Positions 14,785 to 52,767 of a stretch of 64,000 nt of DNA are shown here, in pieces. Both the position numbers and the translations under genes were made by a program. The notes beneath the pieces were generated by a model. The model was not told the DNA's origin. It saw only the letters and a program-made list of their open reading frames with translations, and did not search any database. Where the stretch lies: NCBI GenBank assembly GCA_945863605.1, contig CAMAZP010000003.1:1-64000 (forward strand), in the 5' to 3' direction. Position 1 is the stretch's first letter; the number at the start of each line of letters is the position of its first letter. The DNA comes from Chitinophaga pinensis (GTDB lineage: Bacteria > Bacteroidota > Bacteroidia > Flavobacteriales_D > Crocinitomicaceae).

Positions 14785-15648
14785 ATGAAGTATATATTTT
14801 TTTTCTTTTTTTTTCTTTTTTTTGCGAATTTAAGTGCAAAAGATACCAAGCTTCGTATTCTGAGTTGGAATATAAAAATGCTGCCTCGTCAATTCAATAT
14901 TGCTATTAAACATTATCCTTTGAAGAGGGTAAAATTCATTACTGAAAAGATTTTGTCAGATTCTATTGATATTGTATGTTTTCAGGAATTATTTGACAAG
15001 AAAGTAAATAAACGAATGAAAGCAGAACTTTCAAAACAATTTCCATATGTAATTGGACCGGCAAATAACAATAAGAGCATCTTTAGACTCAATAGTGGTG
15101 TTATTTTTTATAGTCGTTATCCGATTCGTGAGATTGAAAGTGTGGCATTTTCAGACTGTCAAGAAGAAGATTGTGTTGCCAAAAAAGGGGTATTATTGGT
15201 TGAAGCAAATGTTAATGGCAAAATAATTCAATTATTGGGAACTCATATGAATGCTGCAGGTGGTGAAGACGTGAAAGTTAAGCAATTAAAACAAATAAGA
15301 AGTTTGATTGAAAAACATTCGAAAAGTGGAATACCTCAGTTTATATGTGGTGATTTTAATATAAAAAAAACAAATAAGAGATTATATCAGTTGATGCTTG
15401 ATTTTTTCAAAGCGAGCGATGGACCAATTTCTGGCGAATTGCAAAATACGTTCGATCCAACAAATAACGATATGTGTGAAAAAGAAAAAGAAGAAGCCCA
15501 ATTGATTGATTTTATCTTTTTTAGAGCAAATGAATACAAAGAGTCTCGAGCATCAATACGTAAAATTATAAGATACAGAAAAAGTTGGGGCAAAAAGAAT
15601 CAAGATCTTTCGGATCATTTTGCTTTATTGATGGAGGTGGTTTTATAG
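14785..15648 (+). CDS. Exported endonuclease/exonuclease/phosphatase-family hydrolase
   Basis: A 287-residue protein with a very Phe-rich signal peptide (about 1-18). It has the EEP fold motifs in order: LSWNIKM, CFQELFD (metal-binding Glu), LGTHMNA, CGDFNIKK and the C-terminal SDHFAL. The spacing and the FQELFD/SGVIFYSRYPI blocks resemble secreted sphingomyelinase-like or nuclease-like phosphodiesterases; I cannot decide the substrate. The ATG at 14785 is chosen over an in-frame TTG 6 nt upstream. It is convergent with porU, with only 6 nt between stops. Confidence 0.88.
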   Translation: MKYIFFFFFFLFFANLSAKDTKLRILSWNIKMLPRQFNIAIKHYPLKRVKFITEKILSDSIDIVCFQELFDKKVNKRMKAELSKQFPYVIGPANNNKSIFRLNSGVIFYSRYPIREIESVAFSDCQEEDCVAKKGVLLVEANVNGKIIQLLGTHMNAAGGEDVKVKQLKQIRSLIEKHSKSGIPQFICGDFNIKKTNKRLYQLMLDFFKASDGPISGELQNTFDPTNNDMCEKEKEEAQLIDFIFFRANEYKESRASIRKIIRYRKSWGKKNQDLSDHFALLMEVVL

Positions 15649-51052: not shown

Positions 51053-52168
51053 ATGAGTGATTTTATTGTTTCAGCTAGAAAATATCGTCCGCAAACCTTT
51101 GACACAGTCGTTGGTCAAAAGTCAATTACTGTTACTTTAAAAAACGCAATTAAGAGTGATCATTTAGCGCAGGCATTTCTTTTTTGTGGTTCACGTGGAG
51201 TTGGAAAAACAACTACTGCCCGCATTTTAGCTAAAACAATCAACTGTTTCAACCGAACTGAAAATATCGAAGCGTGTGACCAATGCGATTCTTGTATTTC
51301 GTTCAACACAGGTTCTTCACTTAATGTTTATGAATTAGATGCAGCTTCCAACAATTCTGTTGACGATATTAGAAGTTTAATAGACCAAGTGCGTGTTTCT
51401 CCGCAATTAGGGACTCATAAAGTATATATCATCGATGAGGTTCATATGTTGTCAACACAGGCATTTAATGCATTTTTGAAGACGCTAGAAGAACCACCAA
51501 AGCATGCTATTTTTATCCTTGCAACTACCGAGAAACATAAAATTATCCCTACCATACTCTCGCGTTGTCAGATTTTTGATTTCAGTAGAATTCGTGTAAA
51601 AGATATTTCAGACCATTTAGCACAAATTGCAACAAAAGAAGAAATTTCTGCTGATCCCGAAGCTTTGCATTTAATTTCAATGAAAGCTGACGGTGCTTTG
51701 CGTGATGCATTATCCATTTTTGATCAGATTGTTACTTTCGAAGGAAATACGATAACGTATAAAAACGTACTTGAAAATTTAAATATTCTTGATTACGAGT
51801 ATTACTTTAAAGTTGTTGAAGCAACAGAAAAAGAAGATATTCCTTCCGCGCTTTTGATTTTGAATGACATTTATGAAAAAGGTTTCGATGGTCATAATTT
51901 CATCACCGGATTAGCGGAGCATTTCAGAAATTTATTAGTCTGTAAAGATGTAAGAACTGCTTCTTTGTTAGAGGTTCCAGAAGTGACACAACAAAGATTT
52001 ATCAATCAAGCTAAACAGATTGAGGCATCGATTATAATACGTTCTTTAAATATAGTGAGCAAAACCGATGTGGATTACAAAGCGTCTAAAAATCAGCGCT
52101 TATTAATTGAAGTTGCTTTAATGCAGCTTTGTTCTTTGAAACAAGAGCAAGAAAAAAAAAATGGCTAA
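51053..52168 (+). CDS. dnaX: DNA polymerase III clamp-loader DnaX, zero-frame (gamma-like) product
   Basis: ATPase of the clamp loader. This frame gives 371 residues: Walker A GSRGVGKTT (46-54), the zinc ligands Cys65/75/78/81, Walker B VYIIDEVHM, sensor TEKHK and the domain III collar. It ends a few codons after a run of ten A (52152-52161), at the point where domain III finishes in E. coli DnaX (about residue 373). The remaining C-terminal part of a normal DnaX is in the -1 frame in the next ORF. A TAACTTTG box at 51040-51047 ends 5 nt before the ATG, so the mRNA may be nearly leaderless. Confidence 0.93.
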   Translation: MSDFIVSARKYRPQTFDTVVGQKSITVTLKNAIKSDHLAQAFLFCGSRGVGKTTTARILAKTINCFNRTENIEACDQCDSCISFNTGSSLNVYELDAASNNSVDDIRSLIDQVRVSPQLGTHKVYIIDEVHMLSTQAFNAFLKTLEEPPKHAIFILATTEKHKIIPTILSRCQIFDFSRIRVKDISDHLAQIATKEEISADPEALHLISMKADGALRDALSIFDQIVTFEGNTITYKNVLENLNILDYEYYFKVVEATEKEDIPSALLILNDIYEKGFDGHNFITGLAEHFRNLLVCKDVRTASLLEVPEVTQQRFINQAKQIEASIIIRSLNIVSKTDVDYKASKNQRLLIEVALMQLCSLKQEQEKKNG

Positions 52169-52767
52169 CTGAACGCGTTGACATTCTTCCATTTCCAAAC
52201 CAAACTTTAAGAAATAAGCCAACACCAGCGAAAGTAATTGCTTCTGTACCCATTTCTACAATTCATCAAGTAGTTAAACCAGTGGTCTTGTCGGCACCAG
52301 CTGGTTATGTTGAGGCGCCTCATATTTCAATAAAAAAGATCTTAGAGGAGCATAACAAAAACGAGCCAACGTTAAGTAAAGAAAACGAAGAACGAGAACC
52401 TTTTACACGTGAGCAATTAAAAATGTTTTGGAAGCGATTTGCATTTCAAATGAAGGAAAACAGTATGGAAACTTTTTACAATGCTTTGATAAAAAGAGAA
52501 CCTGTTTTTTTGGATGATGAAAAATTAGTAATAGAAGTCGATAATAGTGTTCAAATAGATTATATCAATCCACTTTTAAATGAGTTTGTATCTTATTTGC
52601 GTAAAAATCTGAAGAATTATTCGATAACAGTCGATTTAAAATTGTCAGATGATCAAGTAAGTGAAGTGAAATTTTTAACTGGAAAAGATAAGTTCGCTGC
52701 GATGGCAAGAAAAAACACCAACCTCCACAAATTGAAAAATTTGTTTAATCTCGACATTGAGTATTAA
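52153..52767 (+). CDS. dnaX: DnaX C-terminal (tau-like) region in the -1 frame
   Basis: About 202 residues beginning KWLTERVDILPFPNQ, with a Pro/Val linker and then EREPFTREQLKMFWKRFAFQMKE, a typical start of the tau-specific C-terminal domain that contacts the polymerase and helicase. No credible independent start exists. A -1 shift on A-AAA-AAA (52153-52159) joins it to the upstream frame, for a total of about 571 residues, a normal DnaX length. Either programmed slippage or frameshifting, or a one-base homopolymer error in the sequence, explains this. Confidence 0.8.
   Translation, partial: KKKWLTERVDILPFPNQTLRNKPTPAKVIASVPISTIHQVVKPVVLSAPAGYVEAPHISIKKILEEHNKNEPTLSKENEEREPFTREQLKMFWKRFAFQMKENSMETFYNALIKREPVFLDDEKLVIEVDNSVQIDYINPLLNEFVSYLRKNLKNYSITVDLKLSDDQVSEVKFLTGKDKFAAMARKNTNLHKLKNLFNLDIEY

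Follow-up and report, generated by a model that had tools for sequence, protein, structure and literature searches.

In Thermus thermophilus, relevant passages of later papers (including PMC3711429, PMC5009743 and PMC1088944) describe transcriptional slippage on dnaX (Larsen, 2000), where a run of nine A and nearby stop codons in both off-frames allow one gene to supply gamma as well as tau, the latter being written in frame 0. In Escherichia coli, dnaX also yields two products from an A-rich slippery site, by -1 programmed ribosomal frameshifting with an SD-like word and a hairpin as stimulators, and tau is the default product. The review of Atkins (2016; PMC5009743), in the sections on this gene, links a UUU tRNA-Lys condition to the ribosomal shift in E. 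coli and notes a candidate in Chlorobium whose stimulators resemble those of E. coli. A third group was described by Antonov et al. (2013; PMC3711429), whose main account gives 17 two-ORF dnaX genes from 1106 genomes, all of them -1 and nine with ten A, for which recoding is needed to make tau and a transcriptional mechanism was suggested. The same account provides a rule, namely that transcriptional slippage is indicated where genes of one function shift in either direction. In its relevant part, a further paper (PMC3971599) lists dnaX as present or absent only and has no bearing on the tract.

The locus considered here lies in the window, that is the whole stretch of 64,000 nucleotides that was analysed, taken from a draft genome of 3.09 Mb in 63 contigs with a completeness of 99.98%. 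Like the dnaX genes in the account of Antonov et al. (2013), it consists of two adjacent ORFs with the tau part in -1 at the DNA level and ten A at the junction, hence its reversed arrangement, with gamma as the default product, is not new. Unlike that set of 17, in which all are -1, the relatives compared below comprise 97 loci in -1 and seven in +1, and the same tract stands in 104 loci where tau is in frame. The locus shares with T. thermophilus, as described in those passages, a poly-A run of at least nine A, close stops in both off-frames and a single gene for gamma and tau, but it differs in having tau in -1, ten A rather than nine, and gamma as the default. The A-rich slippery site and the two products are likewise reminiscent of E. 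coli dnaX, whereas the default is gamma instead of tau and neither of the two stimulators described for E. coli was found in the window.

The split dnaX locus and its close relatives

The split of dnaX at the A10 tract is confirmed as a real feature of the window (Table 1). Across the tract the zero-frame codons read GAA AAA AAA AAT GGC TAA, and on this direct reading the coordinates, length and frame of the 371-residue gamma-like product, which the first-pass annotation had ending at 52168, proved right. The zero-frame product carries the AAA, lid and domain III families (Pfam PF13177, PF22608 and PF12169) and matches the dnaX_nterm model TIGR02397 with an E-value of 1.3e-131. The placement of the tau domain in the -1 frame past the tract also held, as the ORF reading shows that frame open across the tract to its stop; while its 204 residues gave no match in Pfam, their sole NCBIfam match was the C-terminal part of the full-length DnaX model NF011531 (positions 473-613 of 614, E 3.5e-21). 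An A_AAA_AAA heptamer, likewise annotated earlier, is present in the slippery register (52153 / 52154-56 / 52157-59).

Table 1. Features of the dnaX locus, in window positions
Feature	Position	Strand	Remarks
dnaX zero frame, gamma-like product, 371 aa	51053..52168	+	AAA+ domain, lid, domain III; stop TAA 52166-52168
A10 slippage tract (putative)	52152..52161	+	starts at 2nd base of codon GAA (phase 1)
gamma stop codon TAA	52166..52168	+	4 bases past A10 tract
tau C-terminal region, -1 frame	52153..52767	+	204 aa counted from tract; stop 52765-52767

The arrangement is conserved in the genus of the window. Of 37 genomes, the window's own among them, three (G011, G030 and G033) gave no genuine match to dnaX; each of the other 34 has at the site a tract of at least nine A and tau in -1, the frame of L032, whose contig ends early, resting on a profile hit. 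Among 40 loci that are at least 72% identical to the window DnaX, drawn from these genome sets and from public contigs and referred to as close rows, the tract is exactly ten A long in 38 and eleven in the other two (L020 and L060). L020 has eleven A yet keeps the -1 arrangement, while L060, which is 84% identical to the window, encodes an uninterrupted DnaX of 575 aa; its eleven A may be genuine or may stem from a homopolymer error, the source being a MAG. The zero-frame stop is found at the same spot in 39 of the 40 close rows (TAA in 29, TGA in 10), and in the 38 that were measured the -1 frame stays open for 198-217 codons after the tract. For the C-terminal part, dN/dS was 0.02-0.17 in the 10 of 12 pairs that allowed its computation (dS exceeds 1 in four of these 10), which indicates that the -1 frame encoding the tau part is under purifying selection. 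Since this frame is both open and under selection, tau is very probably made.

The conserved early stop, together with the purifying selection on the -1 frame, supports the earlier proposal that the short form is the default and the long form a product of slippage, and the comparison of tract length and frame in close relatives that had been put forward as a check came out in its favour. Relatives with a simple in-frame dnaX, which had been regarded as decisive against the proposal, do exist, both in L060 with its eleven A and in other families; slippage is not refuted by them, as 104 of 134 in-frame loci retain the tract. A Leu codon lying over the gamma stop was considered as a further signal and set aside as weak, given that four of the six Leu codons also give a stop before A and that such stop-giving codons make up 973 of the 1445 Leu codons in the same genes. 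Two of the public MAG contigs, L061 and L063, are titled Chryseobacterium gleum and Chitinophaga pinensis, and their dnaX is 78% identical to that of the window; the dnaX of Chitinophaga terrae is 60% identical to it. The record names of L061 and L063 are probably wrong.

The A tract and the tau frame across Bacteroidota

The wider comparison started from 244 loci (L003-L246), of which L059 was dropped, its N-terminal part being identical to that of another locus, leaving 243. This sample is weighted toward the genus of the window and toward good matches, and one search contributed its 80 best matches out of at least 594. In the genome search, 385 of 395 genomes matched; 94 of the 95 belonging to the same class were used (G369 was left out, its match looking the same as that of G145), and outside the class 14 of 287 genomes were hand-picked among the better-scoring matches listed. 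A run of at least nine A just after domain III is present in 211 of the 243 loci, distributed as A9 in 23, A10 in 172, A11 in 13, A12 in two and A13 in one. In the 253,200 bases of these genes that lie upstream of the site, A runs reach a length of eight at most, so that the tract exceeds chance; further downstream, ten runs of 9-10 A occur in 398,915 bases. Among the tract-bearing loci compared, all three codon phases are represented at the first base of the tract. The genome search sampled 34 family codes, 25 of which have the tract; outside the class of the window, it was found in three of the 14 genomes. Within the window there are 11 runs of at least nine A or T, and the dnaX tract is the only one well inside a gene, as judged from mechanically called ORFs; seven are not contained in an ORF of at least 100 aa, with one of them reaching two bases into the stop end of such an ORF. 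The other three are T9 runs at 14806, 40259 and 49316, each no more than about 50 bases from the start of a mechanical ORF of at least 100 aa, and could possibly represent phase-variable or slippage-prone starts.

The frame of tau was called from open length and checked with a profile of the tau tails of close relatives searched in three frames. Both calls agreed in 218 of the 219 loci that had both, while 20 called loci gave no profile hit; as a result of the profile search, L095, which has two breaks, was removed from frame 0 and L032 was added to -1. No frame was assigned to the tract bearers L095, L104 and L118 or to the tract-less L109. Of the 208 assigned tract bearers, 104 carry tau in frame 0, 97 in -1 and seven in +1, six of the latter being spread over five families. 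The tract-less loci number 32, and 30 of the 31 assigned ones have tau in frame 0, hence tau is out of frame in 104 of 208 loci with the tract and in one of 31 without it (Fisher p 1e-7 with loci treated as independent). The single exception, L128 from a Bacteroidales MAG, has tau in +1, with which the profile agrees, and no A tract at the junction (longest run 5), and reflects either an assembly error or another recoding signal.

Frames have changed repeatedly among relatives. In six families the tract bearers differ from one another in tau frame. By parsimony, a FastTree tree (242 of the 243 rows, one row being omitted) requires 23 changes of frame within the tract bearers, and an IQ-TREE tree reduced to 173 rows requires 22. 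On well-supported branches, each tree yields 13 independent pairs that differ in frame (0 versus shifted), the FastTree set including tract-less loci and the IQ-TREE set tract bearers alone; sign tests of frame against tract presence or the exact length of ten A offer too few informative pairs. Two Aquimarina loci that are 93% identical, L125 and L129, both carry A10 and have tau in -1 and 0, respectively, and in other relatives a single-A change flips the frame, as between L150 (A9, -1) and L151 (A10, 0) and between the window (A10, -1) and L060 (A11, 0). Across Bacteroidota relatives, the tract is retained in these sequences irrespective of the frame of tau. By tract length, the A10 loci, as counted before the two corrections, comprise 77 with tau in 0, 87 in -1, seven in +1 and one without a frame, while among the A9 loci (23 of 243) tau is in 0 in 21, in -1 in one and without an assigned frame in one. 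Slippage on a shorter tract may be insufficient for gamma to serve as the default, although the A9 pattern is confounded by clade. In the literature searched, supplements apart, no published description of a +1 dnaX arrangement was found.

Early stops in the frames that do not carry tau

The distance from the tract to the first stop in the two frames not carrying tau was compared with that in shuffles of the codons of the same tails, counting loci as independent. With tau in -1 (n=96), the median distances are 4 and 8 bases compared to 28 and 17 in the shuffles (mean P 0.20 and 0.33), and with tau in 0 (n=105, L095 included) they are 13 and 3 compared to 32 and 22 (mean P 0.29 and 0.23). Loci without the tract (n=31) have medians of 25 and 26 compared to 40 and 33 in their shuffles (mean P 0.55 and 0.54). 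By these measures, the stops come earlier than in shuffles in both off-frames where the tract is present and tau is in 0 or -1, but not in tract-less loci. For the seven +1 tract loci, a group too small to tell, the medians are 16 and 1 compared to 32 and 7 (mean P 0.30 and 0.40), and the stops are not clearly earlier than in the codon shuffles.

A recurrent motif bears on how these stops are kept. In 40 tract loci below 72% identity, Ile-Ile-Pro/Ser occurs within about the first twelve residues past the tract, and the first Ile is encoded by ATA in 39 of the 40 (24 with tau in -1, 12 in 0 and three in +1), these loci being related and not independent; upstream in the same genes, ATA accounts for 202 of 1123 Ile codons. 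As ATA followed by any Ile codon always hides a TAA, the early stop is kept whatever the frame of tau. At the level of sequence, these patterns show that selection acts on the early stops as well as on the tau frame. No account of such frame-independent hidden stops, of the phylum-wide indifference of the tract to frame or of its extent in Bacteroidia was found in the literature searched.

A proposed slippage mechanism and the alternatives

The A10 tract is probably a site of RNA polymerase slippage that gives mRNAs in all three frames, and hence gamma and tau. RNA polymerase copying the tract would produce mRNAs with 9, 10, 11 or more A. The unslipped mRNA with ten A would be read to the TAA four bases on, giving gamma, the clamp-loader motor without the C-terminal tail, while an mRNA that gains a net one A, or loses two, would join gamma to the -1 frame and give the long tau form. 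A further class of transcripts would end in the other off-frame and again give a gamma-like product, so that one gene would supply both DnaX forms. The earlier annotation had left the mechanism open between the ribosome and transcription, and the phylum comparison favours the latter. Polymerase slippage would cover every arrangement by one cause, since the mRNA lengths always include one tau frame while the others stop soon, and with shifts in both directions the dnaX of Bacteroidota qualifies as transcriptional slippage by the rule stated in the main account of Antonov et al. (2013). Slippage at transcription, its efficiency and the accumulation of both proteins are what we infer, from the genomes compared.

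A -1 ribosomal frameshift on A_AAA_AAA or A_AAA_AAG, making tau in a mirror image of E. coli dnaX, is unlikely overall but could serve the genus of the window. The heptamer stands in register in the window, and AAA AAG, the form found in E. coli (A_AAA_AAG), is read in 23 of the 40 close rows and is absent from the window. The only tRNA-Lys found is a single gene with anticodon UUU, from an incomplete list (of 342 candidates 150 were scored, and tRNAs for Ala and Ile were missing), a test that does not separate the ribosomal from the transcriptional mechanism, and the Chlorobium candidate mentioned by Atkins (2016) offers a possible precedent. The stimulators, however, are lacking in the window, where no SD-like word occurs within 25 bases upstream of the tract and no stimulatory RNA structure is predicted downstream (z +0.88). 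For the 38 close rows with tau in -1, the mean z of downstream structure is -0.06, compared to -0.23 to +0.29 in control stretches. Beyond the genus, the sequence past the tract folds slightly more strongly than controls (mean z -0.61 and -0.53 compared to -0.02 to -0.41). SD-like words stand close to the tract in a minority of relatives, more often than in control stretches: in the close rows they occur in 7 of 40 compared to 0-1 in length-matched controls and in 14 of 40 compared to 0-10 in length-matched 18-base stretches, and in the other loci in 20 of 171 compared to 4-7 and in 51 of 171 compared to 9-12 in length-matched controls. In Flavobacteriaceae-like loci, GGAG often abuts the A run upstream, the SD-like region being the 5-20 bases before the tract. 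Given this enrichment and the folding outside the genus, ribosomal shifting possibly contributes in some lineages. A -1 shift leaves unexplained why the same tract occurs in the seven +1 loci, and is insufficient phylum-wide because tau in these loci is out of its reach.

The remaining explanations do without a shift during expression. Phase variation at the DNA level, in which replication slippage would alter the tract length and cells would switch between gamma and tau, could draw on the single-A changes that flip the frame in close relatives, but 172 of 211 tract loci have precisely ten A and both members carry A10 in 14 of the 16 opposite-frame pairs listed, which are not independent; it is very unlikely. 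It is extremely improbable that a sequencing or assembly error has removed one A from a single ORF, for although homopolymers are error-prone and L060 is in frame with eleven A, the frame agrees in all 34 genus genomes and the zero-frame stop recurs at its spot in nearly all close rows. Equally improbable is a separate gene with its own start and translational coupling: the mechanical ORF list does give the second ORF a TTG start at 52129, but in 39 of the 40 close rows a search for ATG and GTG found neither in the first 30 codons of the -1 frame past the tract, and the tail is fused in frame in 104 tract-bearing relatives. Finally, the early zero-frame stop might suggest that tau has been lost in this lineage, leaving a decaying frameshifted tail and gamma alone as functional, an idea that is hardly credible in view of the low C-terminal dN/dS and the long open -1 frame of the close rows.

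Beyond transcriptional slippage as such, it may be, and we put this forward tentatively as a reading whose chances fall somewhat short of even, that slippage on the A10 tract of Bacteroidia dnaX nearly randomises the frame, so that the tau frame would be near-neutral and drift among the three, with tract length and hidden stops under selection. Comparable gamma and tau output is predicted in species that write tau in frame 0, -1 or +1, and the two Aquimarina species, as well as the genus of the window and L060, provide natural experiments for distinguishing transcriptional from ribosomal slippage. A core replication gene can hold its two parts in different frames throughout a genus, where plain ORF reading gives gamma only, and if slippage is indeed nearly randomising, this replication gene would be frame-agnostic and conserved through a large part of a phylum.
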